Shown here: one piece after another, positions 15,530 through 64,000 of the stretch
Layout: every line of letters begins with the position of its first letter
Numbering within the stretch: position 1 is the stretch's first letter
Source: Cinnamomum chago
Taxonomy: Eukaryota > Streptophyta > Magnoliopsida > Laurales > Lauraceae
Reading direction: 5' to 3'
DNA length: 64,000 nucleotides
NCBI GenBank assembly: GCA_038049695.1
Contig: CP142458.1
Coordinates: 61,723,501 to 61,787,500 of the forward strand
Notes under the pieces: model-generated
Databases searched by the model: none
Told to the model about the DNA's origin: nothing
The model's input: only the letters and a program-made list of their open reading frames with translations
Translations under genes and position numbers: made by a program

Positions 15530-17047
15530 CAAAAACTATTCTTTCATGCTGCATATATGTTCTTAGAAGAGACGTTCATTGATAGAAGTTTTTATTAAAA
15601 GTTAATTAGAAGGTCGATCACATGGGATTGACAAATGTGTCATCTGTCTTTCTCATATAGCTGTCTTTCCCTGGAGGGGACTGACTCCAAAAAAAAAACT
15701 GGAGCATATGCGATATTGACCTAAGAAAAATGGGAGCATGCGACATTTTTGTAGCCCCAAACCTTTCAAATACAGGTAAGTCAAGTCACTCACTTGCTTT
15801 CGTAAATCTATAGCCATCAATCGTTTGATATAAGTTCTTATCAAAGGTTAATTAAGAGGACGATCACATGGGACTGACAAACAAGTCTTCTGTCATTTTC
15901 ATATAGTTGTCTTTCATTGGAGAGGACCGACTCAAGAAAAACTGGGGCATATGCGACTTTGGCTTAAGAAAAATGGGAGCATGCGACAATTTTGTAGGCC
16001 CAAAACTTTCAGTCAAGTTTGAGCAAGTCAAGTCACTCACTTTCCTAAATCTACGGCCATCAATCGTTTGATATAAGTTCTTATCAAAGGTAAATTAGAA
16101 GGTCGATCACATGGGATTGACAAACACGTCATCTGTCTTTCTCATATAGTTGTCTTTCTTTGGAGAGGATTGACTCAAGAAAAACTGGGGCATATGCAAC
16201 AGTGGCTCAAGAAAAATGGGAGCATGCGACATTTTGGTAGGCCTAAAACTTTCAATCAAGTTTGAGCAAGTCAAGTCACTCACTTGCTTTCCTAAATCTA
16301 CGGCCATCAATAATTTGATATATGTTCTTATCAAAGGTTAATTAGAAGGTCGATCACATGGGATTGGCGAACACGTCATCTGTCTTTCTCATATAGTTGT
16401 CTTTCTTTGGAGAGGATTGACTCAAGAAAAACTGGGGCATATGCAACATTAGCATAAGAAAAATGGGAGCATGCGACATTTTTGTAGGCCCAAAACTTTC
16501 AATCAAGTTTGAGCAAGTCGAGTCACTCACTTGCTTTCCTAAATCTACGGCCATCAATCATTTGATATAAGTTCTTATCAAAGGTTAATTAGAAGGTCGA
16601 TCACATGGGATTGACAAACACGTCATCTGTCTTTCTCATATAGTTATCTTTCTTTGGAGAGTATTGACTCAAGAAAAACTGGGGCATATGCAACAGTGGC
16701 TCAAGAAAAATGGGAGCATGCGACATTTTGGTAGGCCCAAAACTTTCAATCAAGTTTGAGCAAGTCAAGTCACTCACTTGCTTTCCTAAATCTACGGCCA
16801 TCAATAATTTGATATAAGTTCTAATCAAAGGTTAATTAGAAGGTCGATCACATGGGATTGGCAAACACGTCATCTGTTTTTCTCATATAGTTGTCTTTCT
16901 TTGGAGAGGATTGACTCAAGAAAAACTGGGGCATATGCAACATTAGCATAAGAAAAATGGGAGCATGCGACATTTTTGTAGGCCCAAAACTTTCAATCAA
17001 GTTTGAGCAAGTCAAGTCACTCACTTGCTTTCCTCAATCTACGGCTA
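15530..17047 (+). repeat. 247-bp satellite array with A-B dimer structure
   Basis: Six full monomers and a partial one, using 'gagcaagtcaagtcactcac' as phase mark: starts near 15530, 15774, 16021, 16264, 16511, 16758 and 17005. Spacings are 243-247 bp. From 16021 the units alternate. Type A has 'gattgacaaacacg' with 'aacagtggctcaag'. Type B has 'gattggc(g/a)aacacg' with 'aacattagcataag'. The result is two 494-bp dimers that are nearly identical. Weak short reading frames on the minus strand recur with the repeat and are not genes. Confidence 0.93.
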
Positions 17048-17149
17048 TCAAATATACAAAACTCTTATTCCCTACATTATTTCTTACGAGCGTCTCCCGT
17101 AATATTTTCTTTTGGGAGGATCAGACTCTCAGAAAAATATTAAAATAAA

Positions 17150-31395: not shown

Positions 31396-31874
31396 TGTAA
31401 GGAAATTACTTTTAGGCCCATTACTTGAACCACAAGTCCTTTCCTTTTTAGAAGTGTGGTCATTATAGGAATTCCGTTTTCGTAGGATACATAAGCTATA
31501 ATTACTCAAATATGGTTTCCTAATGAGATAGTTTCCTTAATATTCTCTAACTTGATGGACGGCTGAGATTAAATCTAAAGTAAACCTAACTGGGAATTTA
31601 GTCCTCTCTCCACCTATAAATAAAGTCTTTCGTCCATCACAAAGGCTACACACAAAATCAGCACATTAAGGTTTATAGGCAAGGAGAGAGAAACCGAAAC
31701 CATTCACTCAACCTCTTCTTCGACGGATCTCAACAACAGCGCCAGACAGCAGGATCGGAAAGCTCTCTGCATCAGGATGTCTGGAGGTACTCTTCAATTT
31801 ATTTAAGATTAAATCTTACATGTGATTATCATGTTGTTCACGATCTTAGGATTTATGTTAATAATGGTATAACA
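31396..31874 (+). repeat. Copia 1 left LTR (479 bp)
   Basis: Begins TGTAAGGAAATTAC, ends GGTATAACA. Paired with 48208-48687. 'cctataaataaag' near 31615 is a plausible TATA box for the element. Confidence 0.95.
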
Positions 31875-34794
31875 TGTGGTATCAGAGCATGGTTTTAGAA
31901 CACATGATCGTCCATTAATTATGGTAACTTTGCATCGCCATAATCGGCAAATATATAGATCCGTTTCTGACTCTATTTTGCAAACAATTTATCGATCAAA
32001 CTATTATGGCCTGCATGAATGGTTTAGATCTATGTTATTCCGCATTTCGATTTAACCACGACTGTTTATTCATGATTTACTTAAAGTCTTGATTTTTTTT
32101 TTATTATTCTGCATAAAACTCCTGTGGAAAAAAAAATCGAATCGGGGCTGCCGCCCCGAACCCCTCCTTTATGGTCGGCAGCCTGGAGGGCCAGCCCACG
32201 TCGGGTAGTCTGACAGCTCTTTGGGGCGGCTACAACCCTCCGGGGCTCTGCCTTCTCTATCAGTACCTTTTATATATGGTCTATCATGAATGCATGCAAT
32301 ATATTATGTTTATGTTCATATTAAGCTAATTTTGATCACCAAAGTTGCATACTTATGGTTAGGTCTCACCACAGTGACCCTAACAATTAAACACTGAAAT
32401 TTGCCCTAATAGTACCATCATGATGTTTACATTACATATTGTTCAAGCGCATGAAATATTTAATCGCCCACAGGCGGATTATATTCATACGTTTGAATAA
32501 TAATTAAGGAGTGACTGTTCATAATTAAGAGTAACATCACTCATTAGCACCACCTTGAATATGACGACTTCAGATGGTATAATGTGTAGAAATTATGGTG
32601 ACTACCCACAGGAGTACCTAAATTTTATGTCGTATATATTCATATCTTATGCATGTATTGTCTTCTTTTATAAATTCTTATTGTTGTTTCTCTATTACAG
32701 TTGTTGCACCCACTAATCTGAATTCGCATGCTACCTCTGTCACTAAACTCAATGGAACCAACTTTTCAGAATGGAAAGAGCAAGTTGAGTTGACATTGGG
32801 GGTACTCGAACTGGATATGGCTCTTCTTAAAGATAAGCCAGCTCCACTCACTGAAAAAAGTACCCCTGAGGAAAAGGCCCTCTTTAATGCTTGGGAGACT
32901 AAGCATATCCAGACTAAGCACCATATTTATGCGAATGACTATTGCCACCAACATCAAAACATCACTTCCCACCATATTTATGCGAATGACTATTGCCACC
33001 AACATCAAAACATCACTTCCCAAACCTGAGAATGCTAAGGACTATATGAAGGCCATTAAAGATAGGTTTAAGACTGCAGACAAATCCCTTGCTGGGAAAC
33101 TAATGGCAGATCTTACAACCATGAAGTTTGATGGCACTCGCTTAATGCATGAGCATGTCATTGAGATGACCAACCTTGCTGCTAAACTCAAGAATTTGGG
33201 ATTATCAGTGGATGAGGCTTTTCTCGTCCAATTTATCCTAAATAGTTTACCTCCTCAGTACGGGCCTTTTCAAATTCACTACAACACTATTACGGACAAG
33301 TGGACAGTGAATGAATTGGCTAACAAACTGGTTCAAGAGGAGGCCAGGCTGAATCAACAAGGTATTAAAGTAGCTCATCTCGTTCAAGGAGCTGGACATA
33401 AAGCTGGGAAAAAGAATAATTTAGGCCAGAAAAGGGCACCACCCAGACCTAATGAGGCTAGTCAGAACCCCAAGAAGAAAAAGAAGGAAGAAGAATGCAG
33501 ATTTTGCAAGAAACCTGAACATTTTCAGGCAGACTGCATTAAACGTAAAGAATGGTTCGAAAAGAAAGGTAACCCTATGGGTTTCGTAAGTTATTTCGAA
33601 TCAAATCTTACTTATGTTTCTTCTGGTACTTGGTGGATTGACACTGGTGCTAATGTTCATGTTTCCAATTCAATGCAGGGATTCCTTACGATCCAAACCA
33701 TAAACCCAAGTGAGAACTATCTTTTTATGGGGAACAAAGACAAAGCTCCAGTTGAAGCTATTGATACTTTTCGTCTTGTTTTAGATAGCGGTTATCAGTT
33801 AGACTTATGTCAAACTCTTTATGTTCCGTCTATTTCTCGTAATTTGATTTCTGTAAGCGCACTTGATAAAGATGGTTATTCCTTTGAAGTAGGAAATGGT
33901 AATTTCAGTTCATTTAAAGATTCTAGTCGCATTGGTTTTGGAATATTGATTGACGGGCTATACAAGCTTCATCTTAATAGTCTATTTACTGAAACCCATC
34001 TTACTCTACATTCTAAGGAAACAAAACGAAAGTCATCCAGAAACGACTCTTATTTCTTGTGGCATAAAAGACTGTGTCACATATCCAGTGAAAGAATCAA
34101 ACGATTAGTAAAAGATAGTGTCCTTTCGGATCTAGATTTTACTAATATTACAGTATGTGTGGATTGTATTAAAGGCAAAACAACACAACACACAAAGAAA
34201 GGAGCCACAATAAGTACTCAGCTTCTTGGAATAATTCATACAGACTTTTGCGGACCCTTTGATGTTCCAACCTTTGGGGGAGAAAAGTACTTCATTACCT
34301 TTATTGATGATTACTCACGTTACTGTTACCTATGCTTGTTGCATGACAAATCTCAGTCTGTGGATGCTGTACAAGTATTCATTACTGAAGTCGAAAGGCA
34401 ACTAGATAGAAAAGTGAAAATCATAAGGTCAGATAGAGGTGGTGAGTTTTATGGTAGGTATGATGAAATAGGACGGCATCCTGGACCTTTTGCAAAACTC
34501 CTCCAAAAGCTTGGAATTGTTGCCCAATACACAACGCCTGGTTCTCCATGGCAGAATGGTGTAGCTGAAAGGCGAAATCGTACATACATGGAAATGGTTA
34601 GACCCATGATGAGTCATGCCAACTTACCTATATCCTTGTGGATGGATGCTCTACGCACAGCTGTTTATATCTTGAATAGGGTTCCCAGTAAGGCAGTTCC
34701 AAAGACACCTTTTGAACTGTGGAAAGGATGGAAACCTAGTTTAAGACATCTCCAAATTTGGGGTTGCCCAGCTGAGGCTAGAGTCACTACAAGA

Positions 34795-35395
34795 AATTGC
34801 ACTTTTGCCGGCGCTAAAAAAGCGCCGGCAAAAGTCTATAAAACGCCGGTGAACACCTTTGCCGGCGATTTTCCTTGCGCCGGCAATACGCCGGTAAAAG
34901 GTCGCCAGCATTAGCTTTTGCCGGCGAAAAAAGGTTAGCGCCGGGAAAAATAATACATTAACGGCGTTTTTATTCGCCGGGAAAAGACGTATAAAACGCC
35001 GGGAAAATGCCTTTATTTTTCAATAATAAATTAATTTAAAAACTTTTGCCGGCGTTTTTTTGCATCGGCAAAACATTTATATTTTATGGATTTTTTTTTA
35101 AATTTATTGCCGGCGTTTTTTTTGCGCCGGCAAAACATTTATATTTTATGGAATTTTTTTTCAAAATTTATTGCCGGCGTTTTTTTTTGCGCCGGCAAAA
35201 CATTTATATTTTATGAAATTTTTTTCAAAAATTATTGCCGGCGTTTTTTTTGCGCCGGCAAAACATTTATATTTTATGAAAATTAATTTTCCAAAATTAT
35301 TTGCCGGCGTATTTTGTCGCCGGGAAAACATTTATTTTTTTTAAGTAATTATTTTGAAGGTGTTTTGCCGGCGAAAATGTTACGCCGGCAATCAA
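34795..35395. repeat. Left subterminal repeat array of the large CACTA element
   Basis: Repeated 'ttgccggcg...gcgccggcaaaa' palindromic modules. From about 35040 to 35300 they settle into a tandem repeat of about 65 bp (GCCGGCG, T-run, GCGCCGGC, 'aaaacatttatattttatg'). In characterised CACTA elements such subterminal motifs bind the TNPA-type protein; that is inferred here. Confidence 0.9.
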
Positions 35396-35744
35396 TATTC
35401 ATTTATTGTATTTATTTGATTTTTTAATTTTTTTCCTGTATATGCATCATTACAACTTCGAACCTGTATCGTATGAAACTACTATTCTAGTATTTAAGAC
35501 CAAATCTCCTACACACCCAACATCTATCTATTCCAAATATTCATTCCACTTCATATTAATATTCAAATATCCTTACAATATTAAAAGTACTTTACCATTA
35601 CCATTACAAAATAAAAATCCATAGTAACATTCTACGATTTGCCAACATTCAAATGCCAATGAAAAATTACATCTTCATATACAATCATCTCATTGTTGCA
35701 CCAATCCAACACCTGCAACATTGTTCAAAAAAACTTCATACATC

Positions 35745-36092
35745 CTATTTTAACATATGGCAATCTGTTATGTTATGCTCTTGAGGTAAGCTCCATGTCA
35801 GACCTCCAAGGTTATAGCTTGTGATAGTTAGAGTATTTTGCTTGCAATTGTCTGGACTCAGAATATTGTTGTTGTTCACACACTTGAGCAGATTGCCATT
35901 AGAAGTGTAGCCATTGGAGGACTCCAGTTCCCCCTTTAGTGCTTTGTCATAATCTGATGGATTCATAACTGAACACATGACATCTGCATAATGAAGTACT
36001 GGATACTTGGAACTGCCAAACATTGAAGACTCAACTACCAGTTTTTCTTTGATACTCTGAACAGCATGTGCATATTCCAATCCAAATAGAAC
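35745..36092 (-). pseudogene. Exon-like block C of captured host gene (unidentified)
   Basis: Begins after a good acceptor (GAAATGTAG) and is open for 115 codons to a stop. It reads VLFGLEYAHAVQSIKEKL, continues through a 'YPVLHYADVMCSVMNPSDY' region and ends CHMLK. The composition is protein-like, but I do not recognise the family. Being last in the minus-strand order, it is probably the 3'-terminal exon of the captured gene. The real gene should exist elsewhere in the genome. Confidence 0.5.
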
Positions 36093-37790
36093 CTACATTT
36101 CGGAAAGAAGAAAATGATTATAAAAGATTAAAGAATATCATACCACCCAATAGAATTACATTTTTCAGATGATTGCTAAATTAGAATGAACAACTTTATA
36201 AGGAAGATTCTCTAACTACAGCCAGCAGCATTCAGACCCATAACTTCTTCCTATCAGCAATTCAGACTAAAAAATGTCTCACTAAAAAAAGTAAACAATA
36301 CCCAATTCAATGCAATAGCCTGATTGAACAAGCTGCAAGTCACAAGTGCCGGTTTGTCTTGGTCTCCAAACACAGCAACAGAAACAGAACCATGTCTAGT
36401 CTGTATAACATGTTCCTGATGACACTTACATGAACAGTTCAGAAGAAAGACACAAACTACAAGTAGTCATAGAGCAGATGCATGATTCTGTCAGGCATTA
36501 CTCTCATACAAAAGAATAACAAAGGCTTCTCCAAGTTCAAAAACTAAAAAATTGTTCTGTCTTCTTGATGACCACATCCATCATTACAATTTCAAAAAGA
36601 AAACCAAAACCCATATCCATTAGCTTCATGATAATGAAAAAGTTAGAAAAACCACATGCAGACTAAAATCAAAACCCAACTGATAAAAACCCAATGCCAC
36701 AGAAAAGACACAAGACCAAGGATCACATGGATATCAGGGCCTGGAGTGTGATTTGTATCTCCAGTAAAGAAGTATTGTTGGTCATCTCAATCCTATTGCA
36801 CTGATGTTAGTAACATTAACTGCCATACAAGCATCTGCGTAAAATGTATGAAAGCCAAACATGAGTCATTGGGGCAATCAGGCTTGCCTACAAAATTCTT
36901 ATTTCTAGAGATTTCACATAATTCACCAATGCAACAAGTACTTCATAGGCAGTAGAATGAAGAGGAGTTGTCGGTGTTTTAACCAATTCAACAAGTCTCA
37001 GAAACAGATCCCAAACCACGAAGTCCGTCAACCATGCAAGCAGAAGCACACTCCTGCACTGTTTGATGACATCCCTTCACATACATGGTCAAAAAGCACT
37101 TTGGAGACTGAATTTACACTTTAACAAAGAATTCATGAAGGTATTGAATAGGTGAAGATTTATTGCCATCTTATTTCCCTCCAAGTAATGTCCATTTCTA
37201 CTACCACGTGTCTTATACTGAAAATCACAACAGCCACTGTTATGTGATTGAATATTATTTACTGATGACATCTTTGCCAGTGTGGTCAAAGAGCAAGCCA
37301 CAAGCTAGGCAGTAGGCACCAAGCCCTTTTAAAGTGTAGGAAGCTTGCTGGATACACTTCCGAGGAAAAGCAATACAGATACACACTGTATTGACTTCTG
37401 TGTTTTGGCCTTATGCAACGCCACTATTAACAAAATAAAAGCCATAAATTACTCGTGTCAGCTTAGAAAGCTAATTGAAAGTTTAAAAAATGGCCATTAT
37501 ACAAATTATTGAAACTTAAAATTTAAGCATTTTCAAGAAGTTTCATTACTTCAGCCAACATGTTTTATCCGATGAAAATAAAAATCAGATCAACAAGAAA
37601 ATAAGGTTCAACTAATAAATCCTTCATCAATTAACATTGCAGAAATCCAAACTGCAGATACATAAATCATAATTGTAGTAAAATAATGAGAAAAGAATAA
37701 AAGAATAAAGAGAGGGACAGAGAGCTTGCAGAAATTCCAAAATGGAAAATAAAGAAATAAATATATAAACAGAGAAAGATAGAAAATGAG

Positions 37791-37821
<31 letters not shown>

Positions 37822-38204
37822 ACTAAAGTGAGACATCAGTGAAGTGCATGATTCAAATGCCTTTGGTTGTTCAACATTTCCTTGGAAGGATAGAAGGGAG
37901 ACCAAAACAGGGCCTCATGGAGAAAAGAGTAATCATAGTGTTAGAGATAGTAATTAATCCGCAAACTCATTCACAAGATTCATCCATGAAGCAACACAAA
38001 CAGAGGATTGCATACAACCTTAAAAAAAATGGAGATTAGGATTACAAAGCAAGTGAAAGGAACACTAGATCCAGTTGTGTCATAAATTCAGTAACTGATA
38101 AAAATAATGTGACGAATTTCATTGAATAATACCATGATAACTACGCATCTATAGTTCTATACATGTTCTTTTACTTTTTGCTTAGGGAGGAAACAAAAAA
38201 GTAG
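36093..38204 (-). other. Intron-like DNA of the captured segment
   Basis: AT-rich, no convincing exon. Contains a compound (AT)n(AG)n microsatellite at about 37789-37820. Confidence 0.4.
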
Positions 38205-38389
38205 CTATTGTAAGTTGGATCCACCCTCTCTTAATACCTGCATTGTGCTGGATCCACCCTCTCTTAATACATGCGTTGTGCTGGGTAATGGAATTCCAGG
38301 AGGAAGCTTTGGTGTTTTTCCAGAAATTGACAAGTTTGCCAAATTTGATGACACTTTGTTGTGAAACATTGTTTCCATCCAAGCTAATC
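38205..38389 (-). pseudogene. Exon-like block B of captured host gene (unidentified)
   Basis: Follows a plausible acceptor (CTCTCTGAACAG). One frame reads AWMETMFHNKVSSNLANLSI, then SGKTPKLPPGIPLPSTTHVL, and stops after SNLQ. A 33-bp stretch is tandemly duplicated (about 38215-38247 and 38248-38280), repeating VLREGGS(S/N). Each copy has CAG/GTATTAAG or a near match, so the natural exon probably ended at a donor here. The frame does not follow on directly from block A, so an exon may be missing between them or one border misplaced. Confidence 0.45.
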
Positions 38390-39424
38390 CTGTTCAGAGA
38401 GAACTAAGAACATTTATAAAGAGATTTTAAAGAGATTTTGATTCTCTTACCTCTAAAACATGTATGTTTTAAATTACTGTTATGATAACAAAGATTAACT
38501 TCTGCGGCTGATTCAGTCTCCATTTATGATAATTTTGATACTTGAAACAAACTAAAGGCCTCATGATATGATATAACCGCAATTCTCCAACATATCAAAC
38601 GACAATTCTGAGTCCATCCATCCCCTTCTATACAAAAAAATATATAAATTAATGAGGTGGAAACCTCCCTTCATAGCTATATCCAATAACCCAAATGCAA
38701 TTATAAAGCAAAGAAAGAGACCTGAGCATTAATATTCCAAACTCTATGTAAATCAGACAACTTATCAAGGCAGAACCATCTATAATAATAAATAAAAAAA
38801 AGGAAGGTGTAATACAATGAAACAAAGAACCCCAGAGGGAAAAATTAGCATTTAACTAGATGACATTTTGATGTAAAAGAAACTGGGTATCCTAACAACT
38901 ATTACCATTGATTGGCACATGGAGTCTCTGACTTGGGTTGGTATAGATATTTCATCCTTTTTTGTTTTTCCCCATTCTACCCAAATGTTGTACCTGGGAC
39001 GGGATCTAGTTATGTAATTGGTTTTTTTTTTGGGTTGTCTTTTGCTTTTGATATGTTTGGAAGTTTGGGATTTGTAATATGAATGACTAAGCGGTATAGT
39101 CTTGATACCTTCCGCAGGAGAGGTGGTGGAGGTCTTGGTCTCCCAAATGCCTTGGCCTTCTAGCTGTTCTTCTATCAAAATTCTTAAGTGGATTGGATTT
39201 GGTGGTGATAATGTATATTGGGAATTGGGAGAGGATTTGTAATGGAGCTTTTTGAGGGATTTTATTAACTCAATGGTCTTTACTAGATTGCATTATGTCA
39301 CATAGATGGTTTCTACCAATGGTATTATACTACCAATGGTATCATCACAAATGTAAAACAGATGGTCAGATATTTAAAAATGCTATGGATTGCAAAAGAA
39401 AGTCAATCCCACAATAGGACTTAC

Positions 39425-39538
39425 AAAGCTGTGAAGTGACTCTATCATGCATCCCTGTTCTTCCAACCTCTTCAAAACAACTTCAACTTTGGAAGCAGCC
39501 TCATCTTTATGCTTTTGGAGCTCTTCTTCAAAATTCTC
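39425..39538 (-). pseudogene. Exon-like block A of captured host gene (coiled-coil)
   Basis: A 114-bp exon of exactly 38 codons, bounded by acceptor GACTTTCAG and donor GTAAGTCC, reading ENFEEELQKHKDEAASKVEV then VLKRLEEQGCMIESLHSF. The charged heptad pattern suggests a coiled coil. The open frame, phase and good splice sites make it a credible exon. Family not recognised. Confidence 0.6.
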
Positions 39539-42500
39539 CTGAAAGTCCGTAGATTTAATCTAAGTACAATAACAATGATTTGGCAGCCATTAAAAATCTC
39601 ACAACAATCAATAAAAAAAAAAAGTCAAAAGAGGCTCGTCCCACGAATTTCCTGAAAACATCAAATTACTCCTATATTTAATTTTTTTTATAAAAACATT
39701 GTAATTATCATCTCTATTCCCTATCTGGGTCAATATCAGTTCATATAATCTTGATTTCCATTGGGAAAGTCAAAACCATTAACTGAAAGCAAGGTATCTT
39801 CCATGAAACAAATCCATCTTAATTTCTGGAAGGATCTCACTCCTATTGGCAGCATAAGCTGGAAGATATCTGTGATTTCAGCTCCAACTTTGATAGCAGC
39901 AAGCATCATTAAAATGGTTCATAAAAGCAGAAAAAGAAGAGAAAACAACATCTACTGCAATGAAAATAGGATAACTACAAAATAAGCAGAAAACCAGATT
40001 TGAGCACTGTTCCATGATTAGAAGCTAGAATGCAAGTACAGCAATGCAAAGGCCCCAAAAAATGCAGAAATATGAGCATCTTGGGACTGAAAGCACTAGC
40101 ATGATTTCAAAGCAGAAGCTGGGGCAAAAGAAGAAATGGTCAATGAAGGCTTAGAAACTACATCTTTTGCAAGAAGATTTGCAAACTTCCATTCCATACT
40201 TCCATTCAAACTGCCTTTTAGCTTCAAGTATCCCAAGGGCCATGTGTTGATACTTGATACTCACTGCCTTTTAGATCACTGCCAGCACCAAATCAGTGTC
40301 CTAAATCTACCTAATATTCTAACTGCCAGCTTACACTGCTGGATTCATGAATGAGTGGAGGCTGGACACACCTCTTGCATTTTCTGCCAGAATATGACAT
40401 CAAGACATGGCATGGATGCAACATGGACACACTATGAATATGGCAGGATTAAGATTTTACACATAATGAACGGAGTATCGGATCTGATATGTGACGCGTG
40501 TCATATATTTTTATTATACAAAAAAATAATTTCCTAGTAATTAATGAAACCCCCTTTCCTAGGAATTCAAAAGGCCTGTTTGGATCCCTAGAATCCTAGT
40601 TACCTAGCAAATCAAATTACCAGAAGCTCAGTCACATGTGACGACTAATGAATTAATGATAGTTATAGCTGAGCGGAATTTAGTTAGATCCTCTGTAAAT
40701 CTGAATACTTGGTGAGTTATGGACTTCTTCCCAGATGATCCAACCTTTTTAGAGTATTAGAGTTATGAAATAATTACTGCAATTGAATTAGAGCGAAATT
40801 TAGTTTACACATAAGGGGGATTCTAAAACAGGTAATGGTTTTTCCTTATCTTTTTCTTTAAGGTGATCCTACACAACCACAGTGGGACCCATGAGTTTCC
40901 TAACAACTACTCATTTGAGTTTCAAAATTGTTGTAAAACTTGTTACCCCATAATTAGTTATTCCCTAATTAGTTACAAGCTCCACATCCCAATAAGGAAA
41001 CCTCTAGAGTTTCGAGAACCTTGATCGACTAGAAATCTCATTGGAAGTTAACTAAATAAGTATGGCCAGTCTCTTCTATCCCTTTCAAGTCTCAACTCAG
41101 CAAAGAGGAAGCCATCATCCTTGTTACAAGAGGGAGGTGCATGGGATAAGATTCATCATCTTGAAAATCTGTATCACACTCCCACTCAAGTTCAAGCATG
41201 GATAGAAGCATGCCAGAACTCTAGTATAGTTTGGTTTTTTGTGATTATTTGCTTCAAGATCCCCCATGAGCACTGACTGGATATAGGATTCATAGCAAAC
41301 TAACAGGGATATCCAAATGCCTGAACTCATGATTATGTGTAAACCAAGGTACTTCAACATGATATGCATAAACCCAAATGGGCCTAGAGGGAAATGCCAA
41401 ACATGCCCTGAGGATGATGAAACAGAATGAGCAGGATAAGGATCCATTTCAAAATTGGCTTGAGATAACAAGTGAAGACTAAACTGCAACAGGCTGGTAA
41501 TTGAAGGGTTTTTTTTTCTGCATTTCCCTAATCAAACTCATATTAGAACATCCAAACATACACTAAATTTTATCGACCACAACAAAACAGAAAAAAAAGG
41601 TAAAATATAATATGTAATCCAGTATTGCCAACAAAGAAAAGTGGGTTGCTTAATATTGCAGTACAACTAGTTAGACTGACATCCATAATTGAAACATGCA
41701 ATCATCATATATATTATTCTGAGCATTAGAAGACAGAATTGGAATCAAACCTGATAATTGCTTGTTTGAGCTTATCCAACTTCTACACTCTACCCAGAGC
41801 TTGCTACCCTACTGAAGGGGTAAAGATCCTGCAATTATAAACCCCATTACATCTAGTTTAGATGACCCTGCACTCAATTTTCAACCTCACCCCCATGCAT
41901 CATTACTTTGTACAGAAAGCTCCCATCAAAAATTAACTTTAGCCTCCTACATGAGAACATAACCATGTAACAGAGGAAGAAGACAAGATAGATCCATTAT
42001 CAAGACAACCAGACCAGCTACCGAGTTGTAGATATGCAAACACATGCTTCCCTAAAAGCACATATAACAGCCCAAATCAACACATAATAAGTAGTGATGA
42101 AAACTTGCAATATAAATAAACAAAGTTAAAATAACTAAGTAGCCACTTTTGCTAGTAAACACGAGGGCATCTGCAAAACTACGACATTCAGCTAATGATC
42201 AGTCGACAACTTCAGTAAATAAGATGAAGTGGTTGCAAACCATTTATAAATTTGTTGGCATTTGACTACTACTACTACTACTACTACTATTGATCTCTCT
42301 CTCTCTCTCTCCCTCTCTCTCCCTCCATATAATGCATTATGCACTTCACTTAGCCATCAAAAAGATCCTCCATTAAGTGCCCCCACATGGTACGAGGTGA
42401 GAAAAGAATAAAAGGCACTATTCATGTGATGTGCAAAGTGGAACTTGGGGTTGGACATCCTTTTGTTTAAGGAGGCTAGTTAGAAAGCAACCAAATAAAT

Positions 42501-44759
42501 AATAAAGAGCCCATATCTACTGCCGAAATGGATGAAAAATCCAAGTACTAGGTTATGAGGTATGCGGACGTGTTCCTATTGGTGAGACACTCATGGAAGT
42601 TTTCTCAGTAGATTAGATATAGAAAGCATCTTTGAAGGTTAGAACAGTTAAATGTAATTAAATTGAAAATGAAAGTAGCAAAGATAAATATAATTCGGGT
42701 AAAATATATAGAAGAGAGACAAGACACTTAGGATAGGAGATCGACTTGGGTTTTGCATTGGCTGTTGATTTGTTTAAGGGAGGTTGAAAGAGAACATTAT
42801 CTCCATAAAGTAGTTGTAAATGTAATTATCAAGTAAAATTTTAGTACTAAATAGAAACTTCTTGTGTGCTCTGCTGCTTTTGATGAATAGCTTACAGACG
42901 CCTCATTAGATTATAAGATTGCCATAGATTGGAATAGGAGAATTTGCCTGCATGATTGAGATTCCCTTGTAATGTAATTGGGGCAAATAGAGAACAATGA
43001 ATAATTGGGGAAACAGAGAACAATGAATAAAGCCTTCTTTTCCTATAGTTGTGTATGCTGGAATCAGCTAATAAGGCCTAATTACCAAGTACCATATAGA
43101 TTGGTTGATCCTACAGAACAGTAGATTCTTTTCGTGAACTCTGCTCATCATGTTATATAAGGATTAGCTACTCAGGCCACAAAATCCTAACAGAAAATGA
43201 AATCACTATAAAATCATGTAAGTTGAAAACAAATTGATTACAAATCCCAAATCCAACAAAAGATTATCACCAAAACAAAATCTGCTTATCAACAAACAAA
43301 TCTAAAGTCAACAAGTGAAATCCTCAACTGAGAAATCAAGCCACAAATACCACACAGCATTACTTCCTTGGAAGATCAAATTCTCGAAGCTCAATGGAAG
43401 CCCGAAAATCTACATTGCATTAAGAAGTCAACTGCACAAAATCAAATCGAAAGCCAACTGATTAAAAGGAAAATGCAACAATCCCAACCCAATGCAGAAA
43501 TCAAAGAATGGAATGCACAGAGGGGAACAATAATTAGACTTGCTCTCTTCCACAGAGTTGAGTATGATAAAATGAAGAAGGAACTAAAATACCTGTTCTA
43601 AAATAGATGTGTAGAATTACAAGGGAACATGGATAGAATTAAGAGAAACCTATAAGAGTAGAACCACCATAAGAGAAAATCATGAGATGAAAAAGAAATA
43701 GTTAACACACACATAGAAATAGATTTCAAACAACATTATATATAAATAATTGGAGCTTTCCAAGTTCAAGACAATAACAATTTTAAAAATAAACATAATA
43801 AAAAAATAAATTTGAGGTCCCTCACAAGAACATGCACTGGTTACCAATTCTCTTCATACACTTTTTTAAAAGTATGAAAAAAATATATATGCCTGCATCT
43901 ATGAATATCATCATCAATATCCTAACTTCCTCCAATCAATCAGGAGTTAGCTTAAAAAAAAAAAATTGGGTCTACATTGGGTCTACAGTGAATGTAAACT
44001 ATTAAAACAAAGTGAAGAGAAAGGGAAACATCTACATAAATCAAATTCCATGTTTCATTTCACACTTTTTCACAAACTTTGGAAGTAAATTAACTCAAAA
44101 AGCTATCAGAATCCCTGGGAAAAGGCAAACGTGCATCACGAGATTTCAACATCAATAAAGCTAAAGTCAACATCATCCAAAACTCACAAATTCTACCAAA
44201 AAGCACCGGCCTTTTCAGCTCGGACAGCCATTAAACACCAGAATTGAGAAAAGAAGCCATGAAAATGCTTCAACGAAAGCTCCAGAAAACAAAAACCAAC
44301 CCTAATCCAGATAAAGATGCTCTGTATCATATTCAAAGCTTCCAAACAGCTCTCACAAAGGAAAAAAAAAACCATCATTAATCTCAAACACCAAAACCTA
44401 ATGAGAAAAACACACACAAACGGTCATGAATCGATTAATTCGAACAAAGATCAGTGAACTGAACAAACTAACATCGGATTCTTCAAAATAAATCGAATCA
44501 TTTCATTTGGACAAAGATCAGTGAACTGAACTCCAAACCAGCAAAGATAACATCAGATTCTTCCAATCAAGCTTCAAAACCAAATCTTTAGCTAATTAGA
44601 AGAGAGAAAAACGGAGATGAGAAATCAAAACGCATCTTGAGTAAAATCTCACCTCAAGAAATCTACAAAAGGCTTGGAAACCAGATCGAGAAAAAAAGAC
44701 TGGAAATTGCAAGATCAGAGGAAGAAGAAGCTGAATTCGAAGCTTACCTCGAACAATCT
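39539..44759 (-). other. Intron/UTR-like interior of the large CACTA element
   Basis: AT-rich with no convincing further exon. The near end (44700-44860) reads on the minus strand like a plant 5' UTR: a purine/pyrimidine-rich 'cttcttcttctgcagaag' tract followed by donor-like GTTCGAG/GTAAGC at about 44749-44755. The captured gene was therefore probably taken with its first exon. Microsatellites: a CTA/ACT run at about 42268-42289 and a CT run at about 42294-42321. Confidence 0.4.
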
Positions 44760-44977
44760 TCTTCTGCAGAAGAAGAAGAAGAAGGAAGGGAGGAATCGCT
44801 TTCGCTTCGAAGAATCTGGAGATGGAATTGTGTGTGTGTGTGTGTGTTTTTTTTAGCTGCTTTTCAAGGAAATGTGATTTTATGGAGGGAAGGACGGACA
44901 AACGTCTGGCGAGTAAAAAGCAGAGATGGGCGATAGATGTTTGTGGCTGGACGAGACAGAGATGGGCGATAGACGAG

Positions 44978-45300
44978 GCGAGATGGGCCAGGGACCGAGA
45001 GGGAGGGAGATACAGAGAGATGGGGTGATGGGTGCTGGAAGAGGCGAGATGGGCCAGGGACCGAGAAGGAGGAAGATGCAGAGAGATGGGGAGATGGGCG
45101 CTGGAAGAGGCGAGATTGGCCAGGGACCGAAGGGGAGGGAGAGGCAGAGAGATGAGGGAGATGGAATAGGCGAGATGGGACAGGGACCGAGAGGGAGGGA
45201 GATGCAGAGAGATGAGGGAAATGGGCGCTGCGAGATTGGCTGGACGAGGCAAGATGCAGAGAGAGGAGGGAGATGCAGAACGGGTTTGAAATGAGGGAGG
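44978..45300. repeat. 60/66-bp minisatellite inside the CACTA element
   Basis: Units start GCGAGATKGG at 44978, 45044, 45110, 45170 and 45230, so the period is 66, 66, 60 and 60 bp. They are purine-rich on the plus strand ('gggaccgagaggga', 'gatgcagagagatg'). Long frames over this array on either strand simply translate the repeat. Confidence 0.9.
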
Positions 45301-45374
45301 GAGATGCAGAACGGCGCTATATTTGCTTTTTTGTTTTTTGTTTTCTTTGGGTATAAGCAGAGGGATTGTTTTAT

Positions 45375-45802
45375 GATAACAATCCCGGCGCATTATTCGC
45401 GCCGGGAAAACTAATTACAAAATCCCTCACCCAAATAAACGCGCGATGCCCAAAAGAACGCGCGAACGGTGGACATTTGCCGGCGAAGTGGGCAGAACGC
45501 CGGAAAAAATAAACCTTTGCCGGCGAAAAAACAAATGCGCCGGCAAAAAACTATACCATGACTGAAAACGCAATTACCTTTGCCGGCGAAAAAAATTAAA
45601 ACGCCGGGAAAAAGGACCTTTGCCGGCGAAAAAAATAAATCGCCGGAAAAAAGCAGACTTTTGCCGGCGATAATATGACGTCGGAAAAAATCATTTTTTT
45701 CCCGGCGAAAAAGCTGTTTTCGCCGGTAAAAGTTATACTTTTTCCGGCGTTTAATGCTTGCGCCGGGAAAAAACGCCGGTAATAATGCAAATTGTTGTAG
45801 TG
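45375..45802. repeat. Right subterminal repeat array of the large CACTA element
   Basis: Repeated 'tttgccggcgaaaa' and 'cgccgg(g/c)aaaa' modules facing the left array, ending in the TIR at 45802. Confidence 0.9.
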
Positions 45803-48207
45803 AGTCTACAACCCACATGAAAAGAAATTAGACCCTAAAACGATCAGTGGTTACTTTATAGGTTACCCAGAAAAGTCCAAAGGATTTAGGTTTTACTGCC
45901 CTAACCATAGTACGAGAATTGTTGAAACCGGTAATGCTAGATTCTTTGAAAATGGCGAAATCAGTGGGAGTAATAAAACTCAAGATATGATCATTCAGGA
46001 AATCAGGGTACCTATCCCTTTACCCTCTATTCCGAAAGATGTTGGAAATCCTCCCGTTGTTGAACCCTTTAACAATGAGGAAAATCCAATAAATGATCAA
46101 CAACTCCATAATGAGATTGTCACCAATGAACATATGGATGAAGCACCAGAGGGACCAGCATTAAGAAGGTCTCAAAGACAAAAGAGATCAGCTATTTCCG
46201 ATGATTACATGCTTTACCCAGTAGAATCTGAAGAATGGACAATTAAAGACCCGGTTTCTTATTCACAAGCCATTAAGGATGTTAATTCTAGTAAATGGAT
46301 TGATGCCATGAATGATGAATTGAAATCTATGGATGAAAATCAAGTATGAGAAGTTGTTCAATTGCCTCCAGGACACAAACCAGTTGGCTGTAAATGGGTC
46401 TTCAAGATCAAACGCGACTGCAGAGGCAATATTGAACGACATAAAGCCAGACTTGTTGCCAAAGGTTTTAATCAGAAAGAAGGCATTGAGTATACTGAGA
46501 CTTTTTCCCCTGTGTCTAGGAAGGATTCTCTTAGAATTATCATGGCATTAGTAGCTCACTATGACCTTGAGTTACATCAAATGTATGGGAAAACTGTCTT
46601 TCTTAATGGAGACTTGGAAGAAGAAGTCTACATGCGTCAACCTGAAGGCTTCATAATTGAAGGTTAGGAATACATGGTCTGCAAACTTAAGAAATCAATA
46701 TATGGACTGAAGCAAGCTTCGAGGCAATGATACCTAAAGTTTCATGAAATCATTACTGCCTTCGATTTCAAAGAAAACATAGTTGACCCTTGCATATACC
46801 TCAAGATCAGTGGGAGTAAGTTCATATTTTTGGTTCTGTATGTTGATGACATATTACTGGCTAGTAGCGACCTTGGTTTGTTACATGAAACAAAGGATTA
46901 TCTCTTTAAAAACTTTGAAATGAAAGATATGGGTGAGGCTTCCTATGTGATAGGAATAGAAATATTCCGTCACAGGTCACTTGGTATTTTGGGATTGTCT
47001 CAGCAAGCATATATTGACAAAGTTCTAGAGAGATTTGGCATGATGACATGTTCCTCTAGTTCTGTTCCACTGCATAAAGGAGACAAGCTTGATCTTACGC
47101 AGTGTCCACAGAACGAATTGGAACGTAAAGAAATGGAAAAATATCCTTATACTTCTCTTGTAGGAAGTTTGATGTATGCACAGGTCTGTACAAGACCTGA
47201 TATTAGTCATGCTGTTGGCATGCTGGGTAGATTTCAAAGTAACCCAGGAATCGCTCATTGGAAAGCTGCAAAGAAAGTACGAGATACCTCAAGGGAACAA
47301 GGAATTATATGCTCACATACAGAAAATCAAGTCACCTACAGGTGACTAGTTATTCGGATTCAGATTTTGCTGGATGTCCTGACACCAGACTTTGCACTCT
47401 TGGCTATGTGTATCTCTTATGTGGATGAGCAATATCATGGAAAAGCCAGAAGTCCGAGTTGCTTTACACATCCACCATGATGGCTGAATATGTGGCATGT
47501 TATGAGGCTGCAATCCAAGGAACGTGGTTGCGTAATTTTATCACTCAGTTTGGAGCTTTGAGTTTCATCTTTAAGCCATTAACTATTTACTGTGACAATG
47601 ACGCTGCAACCTTTTTCTCCAAGCATGACAGGATATCTAAGGGATCCAAACACATGGACCTTAAATATCTATCACTGAAGCAAGATGTTAGATTACAGAA
47701 ATTTGTCATTGAGTCTATACGTATAGATTTCATGGTCGCAGACATATTCACGAAAGGACTACCTCCAAAGACCTTTCAAGGACATACTGAAAGCATGGGT
47801 CTTCAAGATAGTTCTTAATTATTATTTTCTGCCTTTTTATTTCTGTACTTGTATTTGACATTTATTGAGCTCTTAATGCAACTCTACATCTACTATTTCT
47901 GTTTTTCCATTGTGTACATAATTATGTTCGGATAAATGATAAACAGAAACAATCTTTAAACAAAGGCATTATGAGACCATTATGTAAATCTCATCTTATG
48001 GTCTAGTTATGACGGATGTAAATGACGTAGTACATGGAAGTAAACATGTTGCAAAATAATATGTGCACTCCATGACTCTCATTAACAACCGAATTAGCCA
48101 ATACACTTATGCTAACCGACTAAAGGAGTGTTTAGCATATAATGCGTGCTTTATGATTCGTAAAAATGAAAACATTAATGGATCTTCCTATTGACCAAGT
48201 GGGAGAC

Positions 48208-48687
48208 TGTAAGGAAATTACTTTTAGGCCCATTACTTGGACCACAAGTTCTTTCCTTTTTAGAAGTGTGGTCATTATAGGAATTCCGTTTTCATAGGAT
48301 ACATATGCTATAATTACTCAAATATGGTTTCCTAATGAGATAGTTTCCTTAATATTCTCTACCTTGATGGACGGTAGAGATTAAATCTAAAGTAAACCTA
48401 ACTGGGAATTTGGTCCTCTCTCCACCTATAAATAAAGCCTTTCGTCCATCACAAAGGCTACACACAAAAATCAACACATTAAGGTTTATAGGCAAGGAGA
48501 GAGAAACTGAAACCATTCACCCAACCTCTTCTTCGACGGATTTCAACAACAGCGCCAGACAGCAGGATCGGAAAGCTCTCTGCATCAGGATGTCTGGAGG
48601 TACTCTTCAATTTATTTAAGATTAAATTTTACATGTGATTATCATGTTGTTCACGATCTTAAGATTCATGTTAATAATGGTATAACA
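48208..48687 (+). repeat. Copia 1 right LTR (480 bp)
   Basis: Pairs with 31396-31874. Preceded by the purine tract AAGTGGGAGA. Followed by TTCTG. Confidence 0.95.
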
Positions 48688-48692
48688 TTCTG

Positions 48693-61413: not shown

Positions 61414-62190
61414 CACTACAAGAAATTTAGGCTGTTATGACGAAATCTGAAGACGAATTTTTTTTTGTCTTAAAAGAACACCAAAAGGGGACGAAATATA
61501 AATTTTGTCTTCTATTTTCATTTTTTTCAAAAGTATTGGAGACGAAAACAAAATTTCGTCTACAAAAATATGGCGCCAACTTGTTTTGTGTTGGCGCCAA
61601 TTATTTTAGCTCATTAGAGACGAAAACTGTTGTCACAAAATATATATTTTTTTTGCGACGAACGTAATTCGTCACCAATAAGGATAAGTTATGGAAGACG
61701 AACATATTTCGTCACCAAAATAAGGCGCCAATTTCATTTGCTTTTGTCGCGAATTATTTTAACTCATTGGAGACGAACATTTTTGTCACAAAATATAATT
61801 TGTTTTTGTGACGAACTTAATTCGTCACTAATAAGGATAAGTTATGGAAGACGAAAATATTTCGACACTAGAATAAGGTGCCAAATTATTTTAGCTCATT
61901 GGAGACGAAAATTTTTGTCACAAAATATAATTTGTTTTGCGACGAACGTAATTCGTCACCAATAAGGATAAGTTATAGACAGCGAACATATTTTGTCACC
62001 AAAATAAGACGCTAATTTCATTTGCTTTGGCGCGAATTATTTTAGCTCATTGGAGACGAAAATTTTTGTCACAAAATATAATTTGTTTTTGTGACGAACA
62101 TAATTCGTCACTATTAAGGATAAGTTATGGAAGACGAAAATATTTGGTCACCAAAATAAGGCGCCAATTTCATTTGCGGTGACACCAATT
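61414..62190. mobile_element. Left end and subterminal array of a CACTA-type element
   Basis: CACTACAAGAAATTTAGG at 61414 shares its first 13 bases with the left end of the 11-kb CACTA element. It is followed by an array of GACGAA/TTCGTC words. The phrase 'aaggataagtta' recurs at about 61681, 61833, 61964 and 62116 (periods about 131-152 bp), with 'aggcgccaatttcatttgc' and 'ttggagacgaaaattttt' between. No matching right end lies before the window edge, so the element is incomplete here or continues beyond it. Confidence 0.7.
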
Positions 62191-62719: not shown

Positions 62720-63030
62720 TGTGAGAACTTGGTCCGGGCGGTACCCTTAACCACGAGGCGTAGCGTGTCAACCACGGGCTTCAAACGGTGAGTCTCCGTT
62801 AGCCCACATCAGAAATATTCAAGTCCTGACCTAGGACTTATAAGTCAAACCCTGTATTAACTTAGCGTGAGGCTTTTTAAAACCATGCGTCCTCAGAAAT
62901 CGTAAGAACTTCGAATTTAAGCGTGCTCGGGCGGGAGCAATATTAGGATGGGTGACCTCCTGGGAACTCCTCGCGCGTGCACGTGGGCCAAAGTGGACAA
63001 TTTCATGTTGAGTTGGGCGGGGCTGTGACA
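62720..63030 (+). repeat. Cassandra LTR 1
   Basis: Starts TGTGAGAACTTGG, ends GGCTGTGACA. Includes a 5S-like segment at about 62887-62973. Confidence 0.9.
62887..62973 (+). other. 5S rRNA-like segment within Cassandra LTR 1
   Basis: Matches the 3' two thirds of plant 5S rRNA, including the internal promoter words 'aagcgtgctcgggcg' and 'ggatgggtgacctcctggga'. Equivalent segments lie at about 63244-63330 and 63604-63690, with a partial one at 63961-64000. The 5' third of 5S is not recognisable, so this is not a functional 5S gene. The Pol III promoter elements may still be active; that is known for Cassandra generally and inferred here. Confidence 0.85.
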
Positions 63031-63076
63031 GTTGGTATTAGAGCCGAGGGACGACTCTATTTCTAGTGGGGGAGAA

Positions 63077-63387
63077 TGTGAGATCTTGGTCTGGACGGTA
63101 CCCTTAACAACTAGGCGTAGCGTGTCAATCACGAGCTTCAAACGGCGAGTCTACGATAGCCTGCATCGGAAATATCCAAGTCCTGACCATGGGCTTATAA
63201 GTTAAACCCCGTATTAACTTAGCATGAGGCTTTTTAAAACTGTGCGGCCCCGTAAATCGTAAGAACTTTGAAGTTAATCGTGCTTGGGCGGGATCAGTAC
63301 TAGGATGGTTGACCTCCTGGGAAGTCCTCGCACGTACACGTGGGCCAAAGCAGATAATTTCATGCTGAGTTGGGCTGGGCTGTGACA
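63077..63387 (+). repeat. Cassandra LTR 2
   Basis: 311 bp, starts TGTGAGATCTTGG, ends GGCTGTGACA. Confidence 0.9.
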
Positions 63388-63436
63388 GTTGGTATCAGAG
63401 CCGAGGACGACTCGATCTATTTCTAGTGGGGGAGAA

Positions 63437-63747
63437 TTTGAGATCTTGATCTGGGCGGTACCCTTAACAACTAGGCGTAGCTTGTCAATCACGGGCTTTA
63501 AACGACAAGTCTACGATAGCCTACATCTGAAATATCCAAGTCCTGACCATCGGCTTATAAGTTAAACCCCGTATTAACTTAGCATGAAGCTTTTTAAAAC
63601 TGTGCGGCCCCGGAAATCGTAAGAACTCCGAAGTTAAACGTGCTCGGGCGGGAGCAGTACTAGGATGGTTGACCTCTTGGGAAGTCCTCGCACGTACACG
63701 TGGGCCAAAGCGGACAATTTCATGCTAAGTTGGGCGGGGCTGTGATA
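63437..63747 (+). repeat. Cassandra LTR 3
   Basis: 311 bp, collinear with LTR 2 and sharing its diagnostic words ('aacaactaggcgtag', 'ctacgatagcc'). Confidence 0.88.
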
Positions 63748-63792
63748 GTTGGTATCAGAGCCGAGGACGGCTCTATTTCTAGTGGGGGAAAA

Positions 63793-64000
63793 TGTGAGAT
63801 CCTGGTCCTGGCGGTACTCTTAACCACGGGGCGTAGCATATCAACCATGGGCTTTAAACGATGAGTCTCCGTTAGCCCGCATCGGAAATATCAAAGTCTT
63901 AACCATGGCTTATAAGTCAAACCCCGTATTAACTTAGCATGAAGTCTTCTACAATCGTGTGGCTCCAAAAATCGTAAGAACTCTAAAGTTAAGCGTGCTC
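63793..64000 (+). repeat. Cassandra LTR 4, cut by window end
   Basis: 208 bp visible. Shares diagnostic words with LTR 1 ('aaccacg', 'ctccgttagcc'). Confidence 0.88.

Follow-up and report, generated by a model that had tools for sequence, protein, structure and literature searches.

The stretch analysed here, 64,000 nucleotides of Cinnamomum chago contig CP142458.1 (assembly GCA_038049695.1, positions 61,723,501 to 61,787,500; hereafter the window), contains an 11,018-bp CACTA transposon flanked by AGT (window positions 34785–45802). With a probability of about 0.9, this is a non-autonomous Pack-CACTA-type element, in which a mosaic of host-gene fragments takes the place of the transposase region. 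The kind is already known, since Tgm-Express1, Tpn1 and Chenopodium CACTA elements have been described, and the window element is a further example of it.

The terminal inverted repeats (TIRs) start with CACTA (CACTACAAGAAATTGC at one end and CACTACAACAATTTGC at the other), and of the 60 GCCGG/CCGGC words, 58 are found in the outermost ~605 bp and ~420 bp and two in the interior. A sequence-only reading of the same DNA had reported the TIRs, the AGT duplication and both subterminal arrays, and all of them were confirmed with ends at 34785 and 45802. The 3-bp duplication, the repeat arrays and the presence of tnp2 (Transposase_21) in the family place the element among the CACTA (En/Spm) transposons. 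Its nesting in a copia retrotransposon also proved correct: the long terminal repeats (LTRs) are 97% identical, and the copia domains are split around the insertion, with gag, pre-integrase and rve on the left and an SH3-like domain (profile positions 24–69 of 73) on the right.

As that reading had stated, the interior carries no detectable transposase. Comparison with four tnp2 proteins at a threshold of 1e-5 gave no match in the three window-type copies that were fetched (approximately 34785–44500), nor did Pfam reveal any in 10 selected open reading frames (ORFs) of the window, two of which cover 44596–45414. The other features of Pack-CACTA elements are present too: identifiable host donors, host coding sequence (the exon 39425–39538 and the last codons of an RRM gene) and several copies at different sites.

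Searches were made in the source genome (1.06 Gb, 14 contigs) and only the best candidates were scored, so that all counts are lower bounds. In these searches, the interior resolved into a mosaic of some ten modules, most of them common to different sets of sister elements, with borders near 36634, 37959, 38584, 38884, 39324, 40193, 42013, 43168, 44069 and 44920 (Table 1).

Table 1. Features of the CACTA element and its copia host in the window; L numbers denote matching loci and C numbers contigs of the source genome.
Feature	Position	Strand	Basis
Host copia retrotransposon, interrupted by the CACTA element	31396–48688	+	LTRs 31396–31875 and 48208–48688, domains
Target-site duplication AGT, left	34782–34784		End inspection
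Left TIR with GCCGG array (3' end with respect to transcription of the family), subterminal	34785–35389	+	Left-end search
Left common module with 115-aa open block 35745–36092	35390–36633	-	At least 40 copies, 98–100%
Module matching L043	36634–37843		Donor comparison: L043 (C11:34.99 Mb), two pieces, 95.7% and 98.3%
GEX2-linked module, contains block 38205–38389	37959–38545	-	L040 (C6), 94.0%
TIA/PABP-type RRM gene: last ~8 codons, stop, 3' region	38884–39315	+	L039 (C1), 95.9%; RRM_1; PDB matches
Intron–exon–intron of presumed NUA/TPR-like coiled-coil gene (exon 39425–39538) and LINE-like tail	39324–40182	-	L042 (C6), 95.0%
Module(s) common to other loci, including L041	40193–41729		Genome matches
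Module matching L034 and L035	42013–42979		Genome matches: L034 94%; L035 97–98%, two pieces
Module; 43505–44036 matches L036 between SDR exon and RRM exon	43168–44061		Genome matches: L036 90.9%
HDS (ISPG) locus piece upstream of coding exons	44069–44919	-	L033 (C12), 95.7%
Right arm: G-rich tandem repeat, GCCGG array, TIR (5' side with respect to transcription of the family)	44920–45802		Repeat and end searches
Target-site duplication AGT, right	45803–45805		End inspection

The donor loci agree with the window at 91–98% up to abrupt borders and then diverge. Locus L033 contains exons of 4-hydroxy-3-methylbut-2-enyl-diphosphate synthase (HDS/ISPG); its N-terminal exon, for which no family match was obtained, is presumably that of HDS. 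By eye, the captured piece consists of a 5' untranslated region (UTR) exon, the promoter side and part of a 5' UTR intron, with a putative splice donor near 44748 and no coding sequence. Thus, the 5' UTR-like end proposed near 44.75 kb does match a region upstream of the HDS coding exons. One HDS exon used as a query gave two loci, on C12 (100%) and C4 (91%), with all 5 of 5 candidates scored. The RRM gene of L039 contains an RRM_1 domain, and its best PDB match was PABP (6e-14), followed by TIA-1 (1e-11); we take UBP1-like to be the closer name. Its captured piece runs from the last codons into the 3' region and is reversed relative to the other named pieces. The donor at L042 runs on into further exon-like blocks. 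A LINE-like (long interspersed nuclear element) tail in the donor intron (L042:1144–1383, window 40096–40182), with a weak RVT_3 (RNase H-like) match below the cut-off, was captured with the exon. In L040, a GEX2 ORF adjoins the matching region and partly overlaps it at the edge (Ig_GEX2_N, 8.6e-29). The two pieces matched in L043 are separated there by ~940 bp that are absent from the element; this segment (L043:981–1923) is bordered on each side by a copy of ~10 bp (window 36976–36985), as an inserted transposon would be. L041 holds 242 extra bp between positions 40263 and 40272, and neither the matches to L034–L037 and L041 nor that to L043 brought a named gene.

The sequence-only reading had proposed that the element took up one multi-exon host gene of about 9 kb, introns included, in a single event, pointing to three open blocks that share a strand and have splice-like borders, and to what is indeed a true gene 5' region. 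AG/GT borders were seen by eye for 39425–39538 and 35745–36092; the block 38205–38389 is weaker as an exon and contains an internal 33-bp tandem duplication. The minus-strand order is real and host-gene sequence is present, but the blocks lie in three modules of different sources, and the order reflects a direction shared by unrelated fragments. The condition that the reading itself had set for its refutation, blocks from different sources, thus applies: 39425–39538 leads to L042, 38205–38389 to L040, and 35745–36092 to the left-end module found in at least 40 copies. The best donors lie on different contigs (C6, C12 and C1), and the modules have different copy sets. One-gene capture was therefore rejected because of the different donors, and we regard it as hardly credible.

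An ordinary defective CACTA element, whose interior would be degraded sequence of its own, was also considered. The module with block 35745–36092 recurs in at least 40 copies, transposase-bearing ones included, and could be a 3' exon of the family. Donor loci that contain host exons (HDS, TIA/PABP-type and NUA-like) and sisters with named host domains argue against such an origin, and it appears very improbable. Several points nevertheless count against a host-fragment mosaic. No donor of the left module was found behind the at least 40 near-identical copies, and its 115-aa block had neither a Pfam nor a PDB match. Three joined exons of the L042 donor gave no Pfam match and only chance-level pseudouridine synthase matches in PDB, so that the name of plant NUA/TPR, which this donor resembles and which no tool confirmed, is an assumption. 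In addition, L034, L035, L037, L038, L040 and L041 may themselves be sister elements, and a host origin is not proven for every module. L040 may be one because it also has ORFs nearly the same as two ORFs of sister L018; we presume these to be TnpA-like, and they gave no Pfam match.

The block 35745–36092 was present in at least 40 copies at 98–100% identity (best 40 of 66 candidates scored). A 654-bp left-end query (best 40 of 590 candidates scored) and a 420-bp right-end query (best 40 of 615) gave ends that, when joined by nearness, form 22 candidate pairs 8.5–17.8 kb apart. At least 23 of the 40 left-end places are also in the block list. Module 39316–40192, for which all candidates were scored, gave 29 of 29. 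Regions 38100–39620 and 42000–44900 were each found whole at four places only, on C8 (twice, window included), C12 and C1, among the best 40 of 122 and the best 40 of 108 candidates, respectively. End-to-end matches identified four near-identical window-type copies with ends 10,990–11,016 bp apart.

From the block search, in which the window itself ranked second, 20 copies of 10 kb were fetched (ranks 1 and 3–21), all of which contain the block. Three of them are of the window type and 99.2–99.5% identical to the window, and 17 share the left end and have other interiors. Among these 17, L031 also has 36622–38029; it carries a 2.3-kb segment that includes pieces of an ABC transporter and of TOP1 (L031:2149–4483) between two copies of 13 bp (window 36622–36634), and the window type is without this segment, as if it had been deleted between short repeats. 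Own 3-bp duplications were found at six of the seven sisters with both ends fetched (AGT, GGT, GGA, ATT, TTA and CCC), that of L023 being mismatched. The ends of the family are constant while the interior turns over.

The 17 sisters add ~54 kb that neither the window element nor the sisters treated before contain, although for 10 of them the right end lies beyond the fetched stretch, and part of this sequence may be flank and part nested transposons. The new sister ORFs of at least 50 aa numbered 363, and the Pfam scan covered the 150 longest (at least 66 aa) in lots of 121 and 29. The first lot, in which 6 of the 121 ORF rows were matched by coordinates and not letter for letter, yielded 15 families at a threshold of 0.001, of which four are linked to transposases, and the second lot of 29 yielded none. 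The eleven non-transposase families come from 11 ORFs, which were rescanned singly, and were counted as nine donors: zf-UBP (SAD1/USP39), Topoisom_I_N (TOP1), GSHPx (two ORFs), profilin, eIF3_p135, SAM (two models, one ORF), a mitochondrial carrier, and ABC_membrane, ABC_tran and ABC_trans_N, taken as one ABCG-type donor. Three of the 11 ORFs (the second GSHPx, ABC_trans_N and Mito_carr) were below the Pfam cut-off. Eight lie in sisters with both ends in the fetched sequence; the other three lie in sisters that do not show both ends, two in L024 and one in L020, whose left TIR was not found by motif search.

Transposase is present in relatives: L030 encodes Transposase_21 and Transpos_assoc, and L021 also DUF4216 and DUF4218. 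A 480-aa ORF of L030 was used as the query (best 89 of 2270 candidates scored) and gave 64 matches at 80% identity or more. For fifteen of these, all of them on the element-minus strand, one of the 57 listed left ends is no more than 18 kb away, and the other 49 have no listed left end within that distance. Three of the 15 lie between paired ends 17.2–17.8 kb apart, and a fourth, truncated match lies between ends 15.2 kb apart. In four of the 15, the 36640 module was found between the left end and the transposase, and one of these four, at C5:10.08 Mb, also has the GEX2-linked module; therefore, potentially autonomous members carry cargo. The window element would move by cut-and-paste, using transposase supplied by such larger relatives with the same ends.

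The junctions suggest that the cargo probably grew stepwise inside the element, where interrupted break repair may have used unrelated loci as templates, the ends being rejoined with little homology or none. Capture seems to have preceded the spread of copies, because the donors agree at 91–98% and the window-type copies at 99.2–99.5%. At the 39315/39324 junction between the RRM and NUA-like pieces, a short filler duplicates CCAATGGTAT, which lies just downstream. A mosaic formed mainly by fusion of neighbouring CACTA insertions would correspond to the transduplication model of Catoni 2019, published for Pack-CACTA, as outlined in the available parts of PMC13317346 and PMC8903248. An internal CACTACAAAAA word, absent from the window type, occurs in nine of the 20 sisters (L014, L016, L018, L019, L021, L022, L024, L025 and L031) at about the same place, near element position 1815–1943; it is a possible end remnant, probably from one inherited event. 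Deleted ends, which the model allows, could hide other remnants. However, no internal TIR core was found in the window element, only 2 of the 60 GCCGG/CCGGC words are internal, and at several junctions, modules that are a few hundred bp long and come from different contigs are closely packed, with 8 bp separating 39315 from 39324, for example. Template switching during interrupted repair fits better because of the sharp junctions, the filler, the missing internal TIR core and the rarity of internal words, and fusion as the main route is rather unlikely.

The cargo has a common direction. All 11 host-domain ORFs of the sisters are on the element-minus strand, compared with 68 minus and 82 plus among the 150 scanned ORFs. 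In the window, the HDS piece, the NUA-like exon and GEX2 are also minus, the sole exception being the 3' end of the RRM gene. Counted by donor, 12 of the 13 that were named have the same orientation as the transposase gene (two-sided binomial 0.0034). On the element-plus strand, A was in excess of T in 89 of 112 cargo segments of 500 bp and in 50 of 104 elsewhere in the window (Fisher 2e-6), or in 73 of 93 cargo segments without the window element (Fisher 2e-5), the segments not being independent and those of the cargo including transposase sequence of L021. The HDS locus, whose sense is known, has the same skew in 15 of 17 segments. The reversed module has an AT skew of -0.296, and the other 11 window modules are positive. 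The skew is weak in sisters L019 (8/12), L021 (8/13), L018 (1/3) and L030 (1/2). The bias is preliminary because it comes from 20 copies, all chosen by one block, and the cargo modules are partly linked by descent. Perhaps, at somewhat less than an even chance, capture is directional, fragments being taken up or kept almost only in transposase sense, so that the elements, including transposase-bearing ones, would be one-way strings of exons and promoters that could give rise to spliced chimeric transcripts. The literature searched on sense-orientation bias and same-orientation CACTA cargo yielded no description of such a bias for CACTA elements. Sense bias has been described for maize Helitrons.

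Other features of the window lie outside the element. A 360-bp tandem array occupies 62720–64000, with a 5S rRNA match at 63594–63692, the only Rfam match in the window. At 15579–17051, there is a 247-bp tandem repeat in six copies with 91% matches, and at 61553–62177 there are 131–283-bp tandem repeats rich in CGACGAA/TTCGTCAC, which by eye are like the subterminal repeats of another transposon.

The element was compared with known systems as far as the available parts of their descriptions go. Pack-CACTA (Pack-TYPE) elements likewise have CACTA ends, no transposase and pieces of host genes (PMC8903248); here, in contrast, the ends are 8.5–17.8 kb apart (22 candidate pairs), some relatives have both transposase and cargo, and the named cargo is nearly one-directional. 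Tgm-Express1 of soybean carries five unrelated gene fragments in 5.7 kb and lies in a gene intron (PMC1947982), whereas the present element is 11 kb long, lies in a copia element and belongs to a multi-member shuffled family. The Tpn1 family of Ipomoea nil, with 339 non-autonomous copies and few with transposase, is similar by description in its conserved ends and subterminal repeats and in the replacement of its interior by host genic sequence (PMC5105172). Jozin elements of Chenopodium likewise contain host gene fragments in coding CACTA elements, outside the coding sequence; these are few and short, whereas here the cargo makes up most of the interior (PMC8978399).

The family is a natural record of stepwise gene shuffling, in which the ends are constant, the interior changes, donors can be named, junctions are sharp and some relatives still hold transposase. 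The HDS piece is a case in which the 5' region of a host gene was taken up without coding sequence. Should the direction bias extend across the genome, it would have implications for the mechanism of gene capture by DNA transposons, whether through transcription-linked copying or through selection against antisense cargo.

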